Below are positions 631-6,040 of a stretch of DNA of 6,332 nt, in pieces. Source of the DNA: a bacterium. GTDB taxonomy: Bacteria; Patescibacteria; Paceibacteria; UBA9973. Position numbers and translations under genes: made by a program. The stretch is taken from assembly GCA_021813235.1 (NCBI GenBank), contig JAKALG010000050.1, positions 1 to 6,332 on the forward strand, read 5' to 3'. A model generated the notes under the pieces. It was not told the origin of the DNA, searched no databases, and worked only from the letters and a program-made list of their open reading frames with translations. Numbering within the stretch: the first letter of the stretch is position 1; each line of letters opens with the position of its first letter.

Positions 631-835
631 AACCTCACAGAACATTTTGATTCTCGACTATCTCAAACAAGGCAATACACTCACTCCACTCGAAGCCCTG
701 AATATGTTTGATTGTTGGCGGCTTGGGTCGGTGATACATAAACTGAGAAAGCGTGGTTTTCAGATTAAAACCAAGATATGGGAGACCCCAAGCGGAAAGC
801 ACGTGGCTGAGTATAGGCTTGTAGGGCAATCTTAG
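620..835 (+). CDS. Small winged helix-turn-helix DNA-binding protein (HTH_39-like)
   Basis: The product is 71 residues from ATG 620. An in-frame ATG at 614 exists, but the GAAAGGG at 607-613 lies six bases before 620 and abuts 614, so 620 is preferred. The sequence fits the small phage winged-helix family: SQNILILDYLKQGNTLTPLEALNMFDCWRLGSVIHKLRKRGFQI. It has a first helix, a turn with L-TPLEAL, a recognition-type helix with C-RLGSVIH-LRKRG, and a closing hairpin ending VAEYRL. Proteins of this type are common in phage early regions and are thought to bind DNA. The gene overlaps the NinB-like gene by 11 bases and is the last of its operon, since an intrinsic terminator follows about 30 bases after the stop. 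Its target is unknown. Confidence 0.75.
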   Translation: MSNKTSQNILILDYLKQGNTLTPLEALNMFDCWRLGSVIHKLRKRGFQIKTKIWETPSGKHVAEYRLVGQS

Positions 836-862
836 GCACGATATTTGCCGTTTGTAATCTTT

Positions 863-890
863 GCAAGACAAGGTTTTTCCTTGCTTTTTT
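863..890 (+). terminator. Intrinsic terminator closing the ssb-like/ninB/HTH operon
   Basis: CAAGG at 869-873 pairs with CCTTG at 879-883 around a T5 loop, and C plus six T follow (884-890). An alternative pairing, GCAAG 863-867 with CTTGC 880-884, gives the same end point. The position, about 30 bases past the stop of the winged-helix gene, fits a transcription end. Confidence 0.7.
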
Positions 891-960
891 CGAGTTCACA
901 TGGTAACTTGTAGTAGTCATATCAGAGGGCAACAATGAAACTAAAAAATTATGAATCTTC

Positions 961-1030
961 TCCCGATGTTCGGCAATGCGACCTTCTGATTGCTTTCCCT
1001 TCCTATTCGCAAAGCTGGCATCGGGATTTT
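961..1030 (+). repeat. 8-bp inverted repeat with inner hairpin and T-tract
   Basis: TCCCGATG (961-968) and CATCGGGA (1019-1026) are perfectly complementary and are followed by TTTTATTG. Inside, GCAAT (973-977) can pair with ATTGC (988-992). This could be a long-loop terminator or part of a larger structured RNA just upstream of the tRNA-like gene. A 33-codon frame (934-1035) after AGAGGGC crosses the whole structure; I do not call it a gene. CTCCCGATG (960-968) recurs at 2346-2354 in another structured gap. Confidence 0.45.
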
Positions 1031-1042
1031 TATTGATTCGGT

Positions 1043-1116
1043 GGACGTGTCGTATCTAATTGGTAGTACGGCGAGGAAATAAACTTGAGGTGTCGGTTCG
1101 AGTCCGACCACGTTCA
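1043..1116 (+). tRNA. tRNA-like gene with aberrant anticodon arm (possible pseudo-tRNA)
   Basis: A cloverleaf can be drawn for most of the molecule. The acceptor GGACGTG (1043-1049) pairs with CACGTTC (1109-1115), with one G-U. The D arm is GTAT/GTAC around a loop holding TTGGTA. The T arm GTCGG/CCGAC (1092-1096/1104-1108) encloses a canonical TTCGAGT loop, and the discriminator is A1116. The acceptor helix can extend by two more pairs (1041-1042 with 1116-1117). The anticodon arm is wrong: the best pairing is CGAG with CTTG, only four pairs, around an eight-base loop GAAATAAA that lacks U33 in its usual place, so no anticodon can be assigned. CCA is not encoded (ACAAG follows). It may be a decayed phage tRNA, an unusual eight-base-loop tRNA, or a tRNA-like domain of a larger RNA. 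Confidence 0.6.
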
Positions 1117-1220
1117 CAAGATTTAATCGTGGCTACGCATTGAGGGTAGGATAATATGAGCAATGTCTCGCGGACAAAAATAGGAGAAGTCGTCCCGCTA
1201 AATATTTCCTGAGCGACCTA

Positions 1221-1243
1221 AACGTAGCTACGTTATTACGTAG
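1221..1243. repeat. 14-bp palindrome with overlapping alternative hairpin
   Basis: AACGTAGCTACGTT (1221-1234) is a perfect palindrome. Its right half, CTACGT (1228-1233), can instead pair with ACGTAG (1238-1243) across a TATT loop, because ACGTAG occurs on both sides. This could be a dimeric protein-binding site or a switching hairpin. The 12-mer AGCTACGTTATT within it (1226-1237) recurs exactly at 1365-1376. Confidence 0.6.
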
Positions 1244-1281
1244 TTTGTAGATTCATAGAATCCGGTGGATGATTCCTTTTG

Positions 1282-1416
1282 GTGAGCAACCGCCCCAACG
1301 AGATTGGGAACATTGGAAGCAAGAAAATCCAGCGTTGGAACAAAGTCTATGATGAGCCAAAACAAGCTACGTTATTCGGGCAGATGGTGGTGGCGAGAGT
1401 TTGCGACATTCCCTGA
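1282..1416 (+). CDS. Doubtful 44-residue ORF in the structured gap
   Basis: From GTG 1282 the frame is open for 44 codons to TGA. It reads SNRPNEIGNIGSKKIQRWNKVYDEPKQATLF, then ...VARVCDIP, a mixed composition that looks protein-like. A GGTGGA (1264-1269) lies about 12 bases upstream and would be a weak ribosome binding site; the start is not ATG. The second copy of the 12-base repeat (1365-1376) falls inside it and encodes part of KQATLF. No family is recognised. It could be a real small gene, the remnant of a longer decayed gene, or a chance frame within a structured RNA region. Confidence 0.28.
   Translation: MSNRPNEIGNIGSKKIQRWNKVYDEPKQATLFGQMVVARVCDIP
1365..1376. repeat. Second copy of 12-base direct repeat AGCTACGTTATT
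   Basis: This is identical to 1226-1237, 139 bases upstream. The core GCTACG also occurs at 1132, 1442, 2680, 2980, 3001 and 6279, and as its reverse complement at 1223 and 2749. Nearly all copies are outside confidently called genes, so a dispersed intergenic element is more likely than chance. Confidence 0.6.
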
Positions 1417-1503
1417 TAAGGGCGTATGAGTCCACGGACTGGCTACGCAGATATATACGCACTCACACCGCCTGCTCTGCCCTCAACAAAAGGAGAAAGA
1501 AAA

Positions 1504-1827
1504 ATGTTTATAGAAGTTAAGGATAAGTTATTAGATTTTACGGTGCTAATTAGTGCCGCAAAAGAAGAAGCAATAAAAGATTTAATTAAAAAAAACCGCG
1601 TCGAATTTGACAAACTTCTGGTTAAACATTTCAAAAAGATTTTAGTGGTTGAGGACTCAGAGCGAAGGTCTGAGGAATCTTTTACTTGTCCCTGTGGTGG
1701 TGAAATTAAAAAGACGGAGAGACTTTCAAGTGGAACACGCTATAAAGATGGAGAAGAAATATATATGTGCACCACCTGCGGGTATCAAAATACTCTGCAC
1801 CTTATGATAATACGAGAAAAGAAATGA
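1504..1827 (+). CDS. 107-residue zinc-ribbon protein
   Basis: The start is ATG 1504, eight bases after AGGAG (1491-1495). The frame extends back to 1426, but that part covers the GCTACGC gap sequence and has no ribosome binding site. Residues 1-50 are charged and probably helical (EEAIKDLIKKNRVEFDKLL). Residues 60-107 hold a four-cysteine zinc-ribbon pattern: C62-x-C64 (CPCGG) and C89-x2-C92 (CTTCG), with a beta-type tail LHLMIIREKK. Such domains bind zinc and often contact nucleic acid or protein, but no specific family is recognised. It is the first gene of a four-gene run with overlapping ends; the next gene starts inside its stop (ATGA at 1824-1827). Confidence 0.75.
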   Translation: MFIEVKDKLLDFTVLISAAKEEAIKDLIKKNRVEFDKLLVKHFKKILVVEDSERRSEESFTCPCGGEIKKTERLSSGTRYKDGEEIYMCTTCGYQNTLHLMIIREKK

Positions 1828-1970
1828 AACCCTGTAAACCAAGAAAATATGAACCAAGCGGATATTTTCAGCATTGCGAATGGGTCCATAAAATGGCAAA
1901 AACTCACATTCAAAAAAAGTGTAAGCGGTGTGGATTGTATCACATTTGGACTCGAAAAAAACGAAAATGA
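1824..1970 (+). CDS. 48-residue Cys/His-rich basic protein
   Basis: The start at 1824 makes an ATGA overlap with the stop of the upstream zinc-ribbon gene, a strong sign of coupled translation. An in-frame ATG at 1767 lies deep in that gene and is rejected. The protein is highly basic. It has C18-x3-H22 (HCEWVH) and C33-x2-C36 (KKCKRCGLYHIW), which could form one zinc site, and ends in a lysine/arginine tail (RKKRK). Compact knuckles with a CGLYHIW-like end occur in small phage proteins of unknown role. The charge suggests nucleic-acid contact. The next gene overlaps its stop in the same way. Confidence 0.68.
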   Translation: MKPCKPRKYEPSGYFQHCEWVHKMAKTHIQKKCKRCGLYHIWTRKKRK

Positions 1971-2143
1971 AACTCGCTAAGCTCGTTATTCTTCCCTATT
2001 ATATGCTCAAATTTTTTGGGATAACCCTTCACTATATGCCCAAATACACGTTAAAGAATCTTTCTATCGTGTTGAGAACTAATTGGCGAGATGCAAATTT
2101 AAAGTTTTCTTTTACACGGTGGGGTCGTCATGACCAAGAATAG
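1967..2143 (+). CDS. 58-residue basic protein with hydrophobic N-terminus
   Basis: ATG 1967 overlaps the previous stop as ATGA (1967-1970). An earlier in-frame ATG at 1928 would overlap that gene much further and is not preferred. Residues 3-24 (LAKLVILPYYMLKFFGITLHYM) are hydrophobic with scattered charges and could lie in or on a membrane. The rest is basic and aromatic (WRDANLKFSFTRWGRHD). It has no cysteines, unlike its neighbours. The product is not recognised. Support comes from its place in the overlapping run: the following zinc-knuckle gene starts 14 bases before its stop. Confidence 0.5.
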   Translation: MKLAKLVILPYYMLKFFGITLHYMPKYTLKNLSIVLRTNWRDANLKFSFTRWGRHDQE

Positions 2144-2291
2144 CGAAGATGCATTGATGCCCACAGAAACAACTAAGCCCGTGCTTAGTATTTGCCCGAA
2201 TTGCGGGCTTGAAACCGTGCAAGGATATGTCCAATGCTGGAGATGTGGAAAGAATATCTTAATTATAATTCCTCGTGGCAACCCTAAATAG
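2130..2291 (+). CDS. 53-residue zinc-ribbon protein
   Basis: ATG 2130 follows GGTGGGG (2118-2124) at five bases and overlaps the preceding gene by 14 bases. The protein has a textbook four-cysteine ribbon: C22-x2-C25 (ICPNCG) and C36-x2-C39 (CWRCGK), separated by a short beta hairpin (LETVQGYVQ). A polar leader of about 20 residues precedes it, and a hydrophobic strand with a basic tail (ILIIIPRGNPK) follows. Such isolated zinc ribbons are common in phage and bacterial genomes; the function is not predictable from this alone. It ends the 1504-2291 operon. A small hairpin (CCCTA/TAGGG, 2282-2293) overlaps the stop but has no T-tract, so it is not a terminator. Confidence 0.7.
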   Translation: MTKNSEDALMPTETTKPVLSICPNCGLETVQGYVQCWRCGKNILIIIPRGNPK

Positions 2292-2299
2292 GGGGTGAA

Positions 2300-2366
2300 A
2301 TCGGGCGGGAATTTCTATCTCGTTAGTAATTTTACGCGGACACTGCTCCCGATGCTGTTGGTGTCC
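2300..2366 (+). other. Possible H-type pseudoknot
   Basis: ATCGGG (2300-2305) can pair with CCCGAT (2348-2353), which lies in the loop of a second 6-bp stem, GGACAC (2338-2343) with GTGTCC (2361-2366). The two stems interlock, as in an H-type pseudoknot with a 32-base first loop. It lies just upstream of a small ORF with a good ribosome binding site, so it might be a leader structure. Six-base pairings can arise by chance, and no known riboswitch is recognised. Confidence 0.3.
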
Positions 2367-2396
2367 CTGCCACGGGGTTAATTTGAGGAAATAACA

Positions 2397-2519
2397 ATGT
2401 TCATGACCCAAGAATATCTCTGTATAGCCTGTAAGCGTGGATTTAGGCTATTTCATTACAGGAATTACTTCAAAGCCCTGAATACACGAATTGGAACGGT
2501 CTATTTGTGCTTAAACTAA
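2397..2519 (+). CDS. 40-residue cysteine-containing small protein
   Basis: ATG 2397 lies eight bases after GAGG (2385-2388). The product begins MFMTQEYLCIACKRGFRLFH, with C9-x2-C12 like the first knuckle of a zinc ribbon. A basic/aromatic middle follows (RLFHYRNYFKALNTR), and the end is VYLCLN, with a single C38. A complete ribbon would need a second pair, so the protein looks cut short two residues after its third cysteine. The stop TAA is directly followed by the first base of a strong RNA stem at 2520. It may be a genuine tiny gene, a truncated ribbon, or a chance frame. The ribosome binding site and composition favour a real or recently real gene. Confidence 0.5.
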   Translation: MFMTQEYLCIACKRGFRLFHYRNYFKALNTRIGTVYLCLN

Positions 2520-2617
2520 TTCCGGTGAGAATCCCCCTAACCGTGAGGCGGGGGCACGACACCATAAGTCGAGTAGGCTTATGAAATCTCGCCGGAAAGA
2601 TTTTTTATTTTTCTCTT
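2520..2617 (+). ncRNA. Three-way-junction RNA structure ending in T-tract (terminator or regulatory RNA)
   Basis: An 11-bp closing stem is formed by TTCCGGTGAGA (2520-2530) and TCTCGCCGGAA (2587-2597), with one G-U. Inside it sit two arms. CCCCC/GGGGG (2533-2537/2550-2554) is capped by CC-GTGA-GG, a GNRA tetraloop. CATAAG/CTTATG (2563-2568/2578-2583) has a nine-base loop. Junction strands are AT, CACGACAC and AAA. A tract of TTTTTTATTTTT starts four bases after the closing stem, so it can end transcription of the upstream small ORF. The elaborate interior is more than a terminator needs. The words CCGGTGAGAATCC recall cobalamin riboswitches, but the rest does not fit. Confidence 0.6.
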
Positions 2618-2621
2618 GCTT

Positions 2622-2650
2622 TTGACGATTTGTCTGTTTATATTTGTAGT
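2622..2650 (+). promoter_or_regulatory. Candidate sigma70-type promoter for the pseudoknotted RNA
   Basis: TTGACG (2622-2627) and TGTAGT (2645-2650) are separated by 17 bases: five of six and four of six matches to the consensus boxes. Transcription would start near 2657-2659, just before the interlocked stems, and after the T-tract of the preceding structure. Confidence 0.4.
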
Positions 2651-2657
2651 GCGAATA

Positions 2658-2783
2658 GTCATTGAAAACCAAATTTTATGCTACGAACAAATTACATATT
2701 ATCATTTTATAACCCGCAAGTTTGCCCGCAGGGGCTATTGGCATTGTTCGTAGCAATGACTTTCGCGCTTGCGGGTTTTTTAT
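2658..2783 (+). ncRNA. Candidate self-contained small RNA with interlocked stems and terminator
   Basis: Stem A is a perfect 12-bp pairing of TGCTACGAACAA (2679-2690) with TTGTTCGTAGCA (2744-2755). Stem B is a perfect 10-bp pairing of AACCCGCAAG (2711-2720) with CTTGCGGGTT (2768-2777). B begins inside the loop of A and ends after it, so the stems interlock as a pseudoknot. A small hairpin GCCC-GCAG-GGGC (2724-2735) sits between. Stem B runs straight into TTTTTT (2776-2781), so B doubles as the terminator stem. With the candidate promoter upstream, this predicts an RNA of about 125 bases. No significant ORF lies in it. No known family is recognised; 12- and 10-bp perfect pairings are far beyond chance in this span. 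Confidence 0.62.
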
Positions 2784-2859
2784 TTTAATTAACGGTGATG
2801 TAGAGAGCCAGTAAATCAGCCAACAAAAGCATATTCTCGCCCTTAATCATAATCGAAAT

Positions 2860-2926
2860 GATTGTGTTACTTTCCGACTATTGCGCGGATTGGTTCTGGT
2901 AAAAATTTTAATTCAGAAACACAATC
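2860..2926. repeat. 9-bp inverted repeat, possible third RNA structure
   Basis: GATTGTGTT (2860-2868) pairs with AACACAATC (2918-2926). Inside, TTCTG (2894-2898) can pair with CAGAA (2914-2918), competing at one base. Just upstream, AATCAT (2845-2850) can pair with ATGATT (2858-2863). No T-tract follows, and nothing in this stretch looks coding. Confidence 0.4.
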
Positions 2927-2960
2927 GGAGCATTGCCCATCCCACCGAGCAGTAACAATA

Positions 2961-2974
2961 GGGGGGTAGGGGGG
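2961..2974 (+). other. G-rich tract, two runs of six G
   Basis: Two GGGGGG runs (2961-2966 and 2969-2974) are separated by TA. Each run could supply two G-triplets, so an intramolecular G-quadruplex with tight loops, or a two-strand one, is possible. The surroundings are AT-rich, which makes the tract stand out. It lies about 100 bases before the start of the 3073-5890 operon on the sense strand. Confidence 0.5.
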
Positions 2975-2979
2975 TAAAG

Positions 2980-3020
2980 CTACGCTGAGAAACGCGTATG
3001 GCTACGCTTCGCTCGCCATA
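2980..3020. repeat. GCTACGC repeats with alternative hairpins
   Basis: GCTACGC occurs at 2980-2986 and 3001-3007, with GCGTA (2994-2998) between. GCGTA can pair with TACGC on either side; the right-hand choice makes a 5-bp hairpin with a TGGC loop. A competing 6-bp stem joins TATGGC (2997-3002) to GCCATA (3015-3020). The arrangement resembles the 1221-1243 element. It sits in the leader of the large downstream operon, 53 bases before its first start. Confidence 0.5.
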
Positions 3021-3072
3021 TATATCTATGTGAAAAGATTGTTAAAAGATGAAAACTAAAAGGAGAAACAAT

Positions 3073-3534
3073 ATGAGTCATCACGGAGACAAACCAGAAT
3101 TGAGCAAACGGTTTGAGGAATTTCTCAAGACGGTACCGCGAAGTAGTGGATTGAAAGAAAGTCCGCTTGGTAATACCGGAAATTGCACACCCATATTCGG
3201 TGCAACGGGCAAGTTCCCCAATGGTAAATTAAACGAAAACGATGAGGGTGAAATTCGCATAGGCATTAGAGCTGATTCTAATGGAATAGTAACAATGAAT
3301 TTCGGCAAACCTACGGCTTGGATTGGTTTTACGAAGAAACAGGCTTATCAAATCGGCGAACTATTGATAAAGGATGCTTTACCGACAGACGTTAAATCGG
3401 AATTGGATTTTTTGAGAGAAATATGGGATAGTCTTTCAAAATCAAAACATGCATTGGGTATGGAATTGCTTTTGAACGAAATCTCGTTGCGTATAGCTTA
3501 TCTATTACAGTTTTCTGCGGAGGGAGACAAATAA
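3073..3534 (+). CDS. Conserved phage hypothetical protein, 153 residues
   Basis: ATG 3073 follows AAGGAGA (3058-3064) at eight bases. An in-frame ATG at 3049 precedes that site and is rejected. Residues about 31-60 are glycine/asparagine-rich (GNTGNCTPIFGATGKFPNGKLNENDEGE). The region DEGEIRIGIRADSNGIVTMNFGKPTAWIGFTKKQAYQIGELL resembles a short beta-sandwich-plus-helix segment seen in hypothetical proteins of environmental phages (EGEIR...FGKP-AWIG...A..L...L). The C-terminal third is helical (SELDFLREIWDSLSKSKHALGMELLLNEISLRIAYLL). No enzymatic motif is visible. It is first in an operon; its C-terminal bases carry GGAGGGAGA, the ribosome binding site of the next gene, whose ATG follows the stop directly. 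Confidence 0.72.
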   Translation: MSHHGDKPELSKRFEEFLKTVPRSSGLKESPLGNTGNCTPIFGATGKFPNGKLNENDEGEIRIGIRADSNGIVTMNFGKPTAWIGFTKKQAYQIGELLIKDALPTDVKSELDFLREIWDSLSKSKHALGMELLLNEISLRIAYLLQFSAEGDK

Positions 3535-3682: not shown

Positions 3683-4015
3683 ATGAGGGAATTAACATTA
3701 TTTGAGAGAGTTATATCTTGGTTTGCCAGACTTTGTTTTAAGAGCCTTCTTTCCTTATCACATAGAACCGAAGAGGAATATTGGCAAGAAGTATATGAAC
3801 TTGAAAAAATGGCACGGGGGGATTATTGGCATGATATTAACGACGGAATGCCTAATTACGACGGCAGATATTTATGTTTTGTAGAAAAAACAGAGCCATG
3901 CGGGAATATTTATCATTTTCAGCAGATTTGTGTCTGTAATATGAATCAATGGGTTACGGATTCTACAGAGAGGGTGATGTTTTGGAATAAATTGGGAGAG
4001 AGTCCAAATTGGTAA
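3683..4015 (+). CDS. DUF551-like phage protein
   Basis: The product has 110 residues, from ATG 3683, five bases after GAGGGG. The N-terminal 45 residues are helical (LTLFERVISWFARLCFKSLLSLSHRTEEEYWQEVYELEK cut by a polar turn). Residues 49-110 match the layout of the small DUF551 domain of phage proteins: YWHDINDGMPNYDGRYLCFVE (W-x2-I-D-x-MP...G-YL), a central strand with a ICVCNMNQW turn, then ERVMFWNKLGESP in place of the usual THW-PLPEPP ending. DUF551 proteins are common in phage early/accessory regions and have no established function. The N-terminal helical extension is not part of the usual domain. It gives strong support for a phage origin. Confidence 0.7.
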   Translation: MRELTLFERVISWFARLCFKSLLSLSHRTEEEYWQEVYELEKMARGDYWHDINDGMPNYDGRYLCFVEKTEPCGNIYHFQQICVCNMNQWVTDSTERVMFWNKLGESPNW

Positions 4016-4051
4016 AACCCTGATAGAATGTTCATTAGAAGAAAAAACAGA

Positions 4052-4249
4052 ATGAAAATAAAATCAAAAGACCTTAAATCTCTGCTCGATAAAGAAATCA
4101 AATGGTGCATGATAAATTCAGTTGGCAATATATGTTGCAAGCTCGGCTTCATTTCTGGTCTTCAACAAGCTAAAAGATTTGTAACTAAACTTGAAAAATT
4201 ATTAATCAGGAGAAATAATGAAAAAACTCGTAACCATAGAATGGGATGA
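4052..4249 (+). CDS. 65-residue basic hypothetical protein
   Basis: The frame is open from 4028, but neither ATG 4028 nor ATG 4052 has a strong ribosome binding site. ATG 4052 has an A/G-rich stretch (AGAAGAAAA) upstream and a typical MKIK start, so it is preferred weakly. The protein is lysine-rich (MKIKSKDLKSLLDKEIKWCM), with a CC pair (28-29) and a helical segment GLQQAKRFVTKLEKLLIRR. No family is recognised. The C-terminus overlaps the start of the next gene by 32 bases; the last residues (EKTRNHRMG) are probably shaped by that overlap. The AGGAG at 4208-4212 within it serves the next gene. Confidence 0.5.
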   Translation: MKIKSKDLKSLLDKEIKWCMINSVGNICCKLGFISGLQQAKRFVTKLEKLLIRRNNEKTRNHRMG

Positions 4250-4975: not shown

Positions 4976-5512
4976 ATGAGTAAATCCGCTCCATTTGATT
5001 TAGTAATGCTCATCTACCGTCCAGTGTGGGAAGCTGATAGCCGCTATAAAGGTGAAAAATATAGAGCTACTGGACGAGACCTTAAAAGCGCAAAAGAATT
5101 TCTAAATCTCAATCCCGATATTTTAGACGAAGTGGCAGAGTTTCAGGAACATGCCCTTGAATATCTTAAAAGTAAATTTGATGGCTGGAATGAACTTAAA
5201 CATCCTTTCTGGGGGTTAGCCAATAATTACAATGTCTACACGCCTAAGAAAACAAAAGAACAACGAGAATGCCAGCCCAAGCCCCAATTACCACAATATT
5301 GCGACATTTGTGAACATCATGGGCGACAAACGTTGCTAAAGCCAAAAGAACTATGTCCGGTCTGTTTTCCTGTATGTGAAAAATGCAACATCCAACACGC
5401 CCCTGAACAATCCTGCGAAGATGCAAAGAAAAATATGGAGAGATTGCAGAGGATTTTATATGGTGATGGTAAGCGGACAAAAGAGACGAAACAACTTAAT
5501 GAATTGCTATGA
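4976..5512 (+). CDS. 178-residue phage protein with C-terminal zinc-binding cluster
   Basis: ATG 4976 touches the upstream TAG, with GAGG (4967-4970) five bases before it. The N-terminal part (residues 25-90, YKGEKYRATGRDLKSAKEFL through FQEHALEYLKSKFDGW to PFWGLANNYNVYTP) resembles helical segments in phage replication accessory proteins, where K/GRD-x-KSAKEFL and a closing F-x-LANN-N-Y recur; this is a weak likeness, not a family call. Residues 109-137 hold six cysteines in pairs: C109-C112 (YCDICEHHG), C127-C130 (LCPVC) and C134-C137 (VCEKCN), enough for one or two zinc sites. A charged tail (KRTKETKQLNELL) follows. It is the largest gene here and may be a DNA-binding or helicase-loader-like protein. 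The function is inferred. Confidence 0.68.
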   Translation: MSKSAPFDLVMLIYRPVWEADSRYKGEKYRATGRDLKSAKEFLNLNPDILDEVAEFQEHALEYLKSKFDGWNELKHPFWGLANNYNVYTPKKTKEQRECQPKPQLPQYCDICEHHGRQTLLKPKELCPVCFPVCEKCNIQHAPEQSCEDAKKNMERLQRILYGDGKRTKETKQLNELL

Positions 5513-5684: not shown

Positions 5685-5890
5685 TGCGTGAATGGACTAT
5701 TTATTTTACCGGAGACGATGAGAAATTAACCGTTTTTGCTGAATCATATGAAAAATATTGGCATGGGGAGTCTTCGTATTGGTATTGGAAATTCTCAGAT
5801 GGTTCGATGATACCAACGATTGGCGTAAAAGCCATTATAAACGATACAGACCCAGACTTTGAAAAACAACAATCCAGCCCTTCATCTTGA
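5681..5890 (+). CDS. 69-residue aromatic-rich hypothetical protein
   Basis: ATG 5681 overlaps the preceding stop by four bases and lies seven bases after AAGGAG (5668-5673); ATG 5684 is a less likely alternative. The sequence is rich in Trp/Tyr (EWTIYFTGDDEKLTVFAESY, then SYWYWKFSDGSMIPTIGVKAI) and predicts as a small all-beta fold: strand, turn with GDDE, strand, W-x-W-F hairpin, strand. The tail (QQSSPSS) is disordered. No cysteine, membrane segment or catalytic motif is present. It is the last gene of the 3073-5890 operon; no clear terminator follows, only the structured gap at 5898-5982. Confidence 0.65.
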   Translation: MMREWTIYFTGDDEKLTVFAESYEKYWHGESSYWYWKFSDGSMIPTIGVKAIINDTDPDFEKQQSSPSS

Positions 5891-5897
5891 ATCTTTC

Positions 5898-5982
5898 GCA
5901 ATGCTTGTAGGATAGCCTATTCGTGCAATGCGTGGGGTTGTTTTTTAACATATCTGCAAGCGTCGGGATGGTCTACCCATCC
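5898..5982 (+). other. Structured intergenic leader with two stems and a 7-base direct repeat
   Basis: ATGCTTGTAG (5901-5910) pairs with CTGCAAGCGT (5954-5963), ten pairs with two G-U. Just after it, GGATGG (5966-5971) pairs with CCATCC (5977-5982). GCAATGC occurs at 5898-5904 and 5925-5931. A T6 run (5941-5946) lies inside the large loop, not after a stem, so it is not a terminator. It may be a leader for the membrane-protein gene at 6041. Confidence 0.4.
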
Positions 5983-6040
5983 ACCCATAGAGGTAACCCA
6001 TTGGCAACCCCTACCAGAGCCACCGAAAGGAGAATGAGTG

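Follow-up and report, generated by a model that had tools for sequence, protein, structure and literature searches.

Phage leader RNAs with terminators are already known, and so are leader pseudoknots, but separately. To our knowledge, no pseudoknot is involved in gating at lambda PR′-tR′ (6S RNA), where a sigma-70 promoter, a short leader RNA and an intrinsic terminator are followed by phage genes downstream. This gating is reported to use Q joining the paused polymerase (PMC4604602, PMC4825925). IsrK of Gifsy-1, as described in the latter paper, is a prophage RNA with its own promoter and terminator, with a small and a messenger RNA arising from one promoter; read-through of the terminator yields an mRNA in which a short upstream frame is coupled to the next gene. 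The word pseudoknot is absent from the main text of that paper (PMC4825925), as it is from a 2025 review of phage small RNAs (PMC12197685). The AbiF-associated RNA (RCd22) is described as a phage RNA of 100–130 nt with a sigma-A promoter and a Rho-independent terminator, located before a gene (PMC12373285). The odc1 motif is reported to connect a pseudoknot with an upstream frame and with the control of a gene; it differs from the phage unit treated here in belonging to an alphaproteobacterial metabolic gene and in having a conserved sequence motif (PMC8632094). Within open-licence literature joining phage, pseudoknot and terminator or leader, no title or abstract opening among the matches listed describes a design of the kind reported below.

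The locus lies in a stretch of 6,332 nucleotides that was analysed as a whole and is called the window. Judged by its sequence, the window is phage-like. It encodes NinB (phrog_72, 1.2e-17) at 217–630 and a winged-helix protein (HTH_39, 7.3e-14) at 614–835, and the best match among the other eight proteins submitted was an unknown family (6.8e-5). Searches of five phylum samples with the NinB profile gave 0/398, 1/296 (weak, 3.3e-5), 0/247, 0/251 and 0/299. A small protein family with the conserved motif LGATGxFPDGKLNENDEGEI and 15 relatives besides the window member is encoded at 3073–3534, with no Pfam match at cutoff. By eye, about 1039–1117 is tRNA-like with a good T arm (GTCGGTTCGAGTCCGAC), though it was not called by ARAGORN.

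The unit begins with a promoter-like pair, TTGACG (2622–2627) and TGTAGT (2645–2650), read directly from the letters with a 17-nt spacer; all its features are on the + strand. The transcript predicted from this promoter and the terminator would cover 2653–2783 (about 125–130 nt). Stem A pairs 2679–2690 with 2744–2755 (12 bp) and stem B pairs 2711–2720 with 2768–2777 (10 bp); both are 100% complementary, their arms interlock, and they make up two of the three inverted repeats found in 830–3050 (minimum 10 nt, seed 9, distance at most 150). Behind stem B stands T6 (2776–2781), part of the directly read U tract TTTTTTATTTTA (2776–2787), and the RNA 3′ end is predicted near 2783. Constrained folding adds an outer 6-bp helix A1 (2657–2662, AGUCAU, with 2756–2761), which lengthens stem A on its outer side, and a 4-bp hairpin P3 between the arms (GCCC-GCAG-GGGC, 2724–2735; stem 2724–2727/2732–2735). 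UCAU is seen by eye in loop L1 at 2702–2705. The hexamer GCTACG/CGTAGC, the most over-represented in the window (10 occurrences against 0.93 expected), is apparently mostly non-coding and is present in both arms of stem A.

Since the arms of A and B alternate and the two helices are predicted to be able to coexist, the predicted fold is of the H type. The pseudoknot was estimated at −38.4 kcal/mol against −31.8 for the best nested fold; this estimate adds stem energies and a fixed penalty, with no partition function, and ranks folds rather than measures them. The G+C-rich stem B stands directly before the U tract TTTTTTATTTT, as in an intrinsic terminator. Its loop is 47 nt long and the terminator scan allows 3–8 nt only; the scan reported a small nested terminator-like hairpin at 2762–2775 as well.

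The letters of the promoter and its 17-nt spacer are as given in the initial annotation, but the −10 element has no A at position 2, and a consensus promoter scan of 2280–3100 found none and missed this one, which is one of two + strand promoter-like sites scoring at least 8.0 in the window. Taken alone it is, on its letters, weak; it gains credit because better promoters occupy the same place in relatives. The same annotation had also described the unit as free of any open reading frame, which does not hold strictly: a 36-codon ATG frame (2678–2788) crosses it and a TTG frame (2616–2753) overlaps it. None of eight ribosome-site words tested is present before the ATG frame, and 22% of shuffles carry a frame like it. 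The frame was dropped as a protein candidate, being without a ribosome site.

Directly upstream, 2520–2597 folds into a very stable branched hairpin before a U run (MFE −38.1 kcal/mol, z −4.9; 0/200 shuffles match the MFE). With its 11-bp base, two inner hairpins and long U run, the element (2520–2612) is a second structured RNA before the unit. It is a possible insulating terminator, and because a stable U-run hairpin lies directly upstream, the unit may be insulated on both sides.

The interlocked stems are hardly an accident of composition. At a loose cut (A at least 9, B at least 7, span at most 110, T tail), the pair A/B was the only one found on either strand of the window, and dinucleotide shuffles gave 0.057 such pairs per window. 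None of 300 shuffled windows reached the observed sizes (A at least 12, B at least 10). When 249 sliding segments were folded, 2501–2610 had the lowest + strand z and 2676–2785 the third lowest. Both perfect stems and the T6 described in the initial annotation are thus confirmed by direct reading, inverted-repeat search and shuffling, and its picture of a self-contained pseudoknotted unit in which stem B is pseudoknot and terminator stem at once is supported at the level of sequence.

Scanning 1.83 Mb with a descriptor of the design, both strands included, gave 232 candidates, compared with 155 in shuffles. The first instances were already known when the descriptor was drawn up, and the scanned loci are no random sample, most having been collected for other reasons (about 165 of them by the stem B pattern), making the scan a control and no survey. 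Loci L171, L177, L178, L182, L184, L185 and L179–L181 were left out as repeats of L172, L176 and L173–L175, and L001/L187, L176/L194 and L172/L197, being the same records, were each counted once. Scores above 65 were reached by six distinct instances and their duplicate loci: three in the phage record G001 and one each in G017, G018 and the window. Among shuffles the highest score was 58.2, and the best other real score was 63.3, in G017 just behind the unit. Copy 4 of G001 scored 58.2, equal to the shuffled maximum, and was recognised by a test centred on promoters. That test covered 33 promoters in four records, with cut-offs set low enough to take in the units (G001 9.0, G017 8.6, G018 8.3, window 8.0). 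Crossing stems beat 60/60 shuffles in the window, G017, G018 and copies 2, 3 and 4 of G001; copy 1 was equalled or beaten by 2/60. For copy 3 the best pair used a stem B other than that of the descriptor scan, and an unrelated site (L190, minus strand, 3543) likewise came out ahead of every one of the 60 shuffles, by a single point. As a further control, the stem B pattern was found at 47 sites in 45 loci of bacterial and archaeal genome contigs, none with a perfect crossing stem longer than 8 bp; the 8-bp one lies, by eye, in a tRNA.

In total, seven instances were recognised: the window, G017, G018 and four in G001. Searching viral contigs for stem B with a long gap gave two matches, of which L001 (G001) has the full architecture behind a promoter TTGACA-17-TAGAAT. 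NinB alignments gave six loci and later L183, and the alignments overall yielded L170–L176 and L183. In L176 (G017) a promoter TTGACA-17-TATATT is followed by an outer helix AGCAAAACC/GGTTTTGCT, an inner helix CTGCGAGAAATGAAT/ATTCATCTCTCGCAG with one mismatch, a hairpin TGTCCC/GGGACA analogous to P3, and stem B TGCCCCCGA/TCGGGGGCA with TTTTTATTTT. The unit lies 2.3 kb after NinB in G017 and 2.0 kb after it in the window, and the order NinB, RNA, "MSKSxPF" protein is common to both; NinB is 40% identical between them, and the MSKSxPF protein downstream of the G017 unit shares 52% identity over 97 residues with window 4976–5512. The G018 unit (L172, whose RNA region is identical to that of L171) has a promoter TTGCAA-17-TATATT, a stem A of 15 bp, a stem B of 9–11 bp and a hairpin UUACU/AGUGA that looks analogous to P3 by eye; it lies 0.9 kb after NinB and adjoins a DnaD-like gene. 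Synteny backs shared descent only for G017 and, loosely, G018. No score above 50.9 was found in two whole records scanned from the NinB group L173–L175, where the unit is absent, and L183 stops 316 bases past its NinB match, too soon to be informative for the unit; of the three informative NinB groups other than the window, two have it. A tRNA-Cys was called in L173 at 3981–4062.

A sigma-70-like promoter precedes the unit in each relative, near-consensus in G001, and its spacing is 17 in all instances but G001 copy 4 (16). T tracts are weak in copies 3 and 4 of G001. Two G001 promoters (L187, 6547 and 8888) are near-identical over about 24 nt and the stems behind them differ. Cognate stem arms pair at 93–100% of positions with G-U allowed, and non-cognate arms at 43% on average and 90% at most (42 combinations per stem). 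Near-identical arms are those of stem B in the window and G001 copy 2, which served as the search key, and the first six letters of stem A are common to G017 and G001 copy 3. As pairing was the means by which G001 and G018 were found, covariation draws its weight from the scan; G017, found via a neighbour gene, is the strongest single case. Covariation among homologues had been named beforehand as a check, and the syntenic G017, which keeps both stems with different letters, leaves the pseudoknot unrefuted. The energy estimate prefers the pseudoknot in G017 (−52.0 against −45.1 nested) and G001 copy 1 (−35.1 against −31.7); the nested fold is lower in G018 and in G001 copies 3 and 4, with a tie in copy 2. 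UCAU occurs in L1 in five of the seven instances, 1–6 nt before stem B, an observation by eye; apart from it, no loop conservation was seen by eye across the instances.

Other searches returned no further relatives. The exact stem A pattern had no match in viral contigs, and the wider stem B pattern, with at least 120 stretches, gave no new instance among the matches listed. Comparison of four of the RNAs with phages by blastn produced short, chance-level matches for three and none for G018. No similar DNA was detected by blastn in phages (whole window) or plasmids (830–3050), nor any match by tblastn of NinB against phages or by single-protein scans of viral contigs. Two phages with relatives of a G001 protein, Alicyclobacillus phage MMB025 and Myxococcus phage Mx9, showed no instance in the 113 kb of their sequence that was scanned (best score 48.3).

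The instances take two forms. The window and G017 have a free-standing unit of about 125 nt that lacks a ribosome site, with no clear gene immediately behind it (290 and about 530 nt, respectively). An open frame through the knot is within chance for both (22% and 25% of shuffles), the G017 frame staying open for 161 codons. The units of G018 and G001 are leaders between promoter and gene, crossed by a short reading frame. Each of the five has a ribosome-site word together with a frame of 28–60 codons that passes through the knot and both its stems, and in four of the five its stop overlaps or abuts the start of the next gene. The ribosome-site word and start are in or near the 5′ arm of stem A, or in L1 for G001 copies 2 and 3. 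Three of the frames start with ATG; the other two starts are unusual, G018 using ATT and copy 3 TTG, and ATT was admitted only where a ribosome-site word came before. The genes behind encode a DnaD-like loader (G018), an AAA ATPase (copy 1), an HNH/AP2 endonuclease (copy 2) and what we take from its sequence to be TnpB (copy 3); in copy 4 the leader frame itself is a 60-codon small protein.

In G017 the unit holds the only promoter scoring at least 9.3 in the 41-kb record. The strand of the unit carries 42/44 non-overlapping ORFs of at least 110 aa listed for the record's two 20-kb pieces, and has the terminase and portal genes downstream. A second terminator-like hairpin with a 14-bp stem (TTTTGTTT) and a T-rich tail (L176, about 5297–5380) begins less than 20 nt past the U tract; because it follows almost at once, read-through in G017 is disfavoured. 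Another conserved structured stretch is common to the same phages (L176 5388–5480, L171 8345–8450 and, more weakly, window 5890–6040, GTGGCGTGTNCCCAGCAGGG...GAGAACCTGCCAGC), and 7/24 of its predicted pairs are changed on both sides in at least one of the three sequences.

What the sequences show directly is the anatomy of the unit, the fact that it exceeds chance, its recurrence in other phages under altered letters and, for G018 and G001, a location between a promoter and a gene; we are confident that the unit is a real, pseudoknotted RNA element. It matches no known Rfam family, in agreement with the initial annotation: at the gathering score Rfam found nothing in the window or in L171, L176, L173 and L001, and in L187, L188, L194 and L197 only a Type II hammerhead ribozyme elsewhere in L188 (410–470, G001 phage; 39.1 bits, cutoff 37). 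The window RNA scored 10.9 bits with the IsrK model (RF01394, cutoff 50) and thus falls outside that family. The unit is like lambda PR′-tR′ in its sigma-70 promoter, short leader RNA, intrinsic terminator and downstream phage genes, and differs in being built as a pseudoknot. No convincing Q homologue was found; a Q-like match in G017 covers residues 122–157 only and is no evidence, because it rests on a zinc motif (CxxCxG by eye). The G001 and G018 leaders resemble IsrK in coupling a short upstream frame to the next gene. The unit shares promoter and terminator with the AbiF-associated RNA, and differs in having no Abi gene among tested neighbours and no Rfam match.

We propose, with a probability of roughly 45%, that the main role of the element is that of a promoter-proximal conditional terminator of phages, built as a pseudoknot; here we infer the transcription, folding order, read-through and trigger. 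A host-type RNA polymerase would start at about 2653. Helix A, together with A1, would close once its 3′ arm is made and bring the arms of stem B together; stem B would then close at the U tract and transcription would end, setting free a stable RNA of about 125 nt whose two ends are held in helices. Were helix A prevented, stem B would have to close over a long open loop and the polymerase would read into the same-strand genes. Termination would depend on A, because B alone closes a 47-nt loop and a formed A holds its arms together. In the leader-type relatives an early-loading ribosome on the leader frame could hold A open, with read-through feeding the coupled gene; such gating fits because the leader frame ends at the gene start. 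In the window the block on helix A would come from some factor, and for free-standing units the short RNA could be active in its own right. A cis-acting conditional terminator is preferred over a free small RNA or ligand riboswitch because the G018 and G001 units sit between promoter and gene and overlap the leader frame. Against it speaks that in the window and G017 no gene follows directly and the knot has no ribosome site, and, on the energy model, that the nested fold is preferred or tied in G018 and G001 copies 2–4, with weak T tracts in copies 3 and 4. The weak window promoter, the unusual leader starts of G018 and copy 3, the second hairpin behind the G017 unit and the lack of the unit in the two L173–L175 records scanned count against it as well.

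The main rival, a possibility of real weight, is a trans-acting phage small RNA. The knot would then serve only to shield the two ends, and an unpaired loop (L1 with its UCAU, for instance) would base-pair with targets or be bound by a protein such as Hfq. This reading would account for the free-standing units of the window and G017, which end in long U tracts and lack a clear gene immediately behind them, for the second terminator-like hairpin behind the G017 unit, for the structured U-run hairpin upstream in the window and for UCAU, seen by eye in L1 of five of seven instances. It is harder to reconcile with the five of seven that are gene leaders with leader frames, and with loops that, UCAU apart, show no conservation by eye. 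An unlikely alternative is a translational or protein-feedback leader, where a start site is concealed by the pseudoknot until a protein of the phage or host, or the ribosome, opens the fold, termination having no real role. It agrees with G018 and G001 copies 1 and 4, where the 5′ arm of stem A contains the Shine-Dalgarno word or the start codon, and with the weak T tracts of copies 3 and 4, but the window and G017 have long U tracts and a frame without a ribosome site. That stem A is fortuitous and stem B just an ordinary terminator is very improbable: the weak window promoter and the empty Rfam result would allow it, and against it stand 0/300 shuffled windows, the syntenic repeat in G017 and the 47 genome sites with the same stem B, whose best perfect crossing stem is 8 bp (in a tRNA by eye).

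Several known designs were dropped. HDV-like ribozymes, which have the same strand order (P1-P2-P3-P1′-P2′), have a short P1 with a short P1-P2 linker; here stem A is 12 bp, the linker is 20 nt and Rfam gave no match. For an AbiF RNA or type III toxin-antitoxin RNA, no Abi or ToxN-type toxin gene was found among the tested neighbours (ten window proteins and ten neighbours of relatives with Pfam; nine window proteins and one of G018 with padloc; neighbours of G001 copies 1, 3 and 4 left out). A frameshift pseudoknot was dropped with no shared slippery site seen by eye, and a ligand riboswitch with only UCAU common to loops by eye (five of seven) and no ligand or metabolic gene link seen. Of the identities first suggested for the RNA, that of a phage regulatory RNA stays a candidate, the riboswitch-like element is less favoured, with no metabolic gene among tested neighbours, and no large ornate RNA was seen.

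Extending the conditional terminator, we tentatively speculate, and consider it rather doubtful, that these units form an undescribed class of phage "knot gates", each with a promoter, a clamp helix and a terminator working only with the clamp closed, several in one genome and with mutually distinct stems. Such a gate would read the arrival of a ribosome or factor within the time taken for some 60–80 nt and pick between a short knotted RNA and the operon behind, independently of ribosomes in the window and G017. Since its letters are hardly conserved, such an RNA would tend to escape pipelines built on nested structures as well as Rfam models; a searchable descriptor of promoter, crossing stems and U tract is gained here. 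If the proposed role is true, a terminator stem doubling as the second stem of a pseudoknot would be a simple folding rule for conditional termination, and at least one phage would use the knotted terminator in several distinct copies. The same design, recurring with largely different letters in a few other viruses, points to a real, undescribed switch or small RNA.
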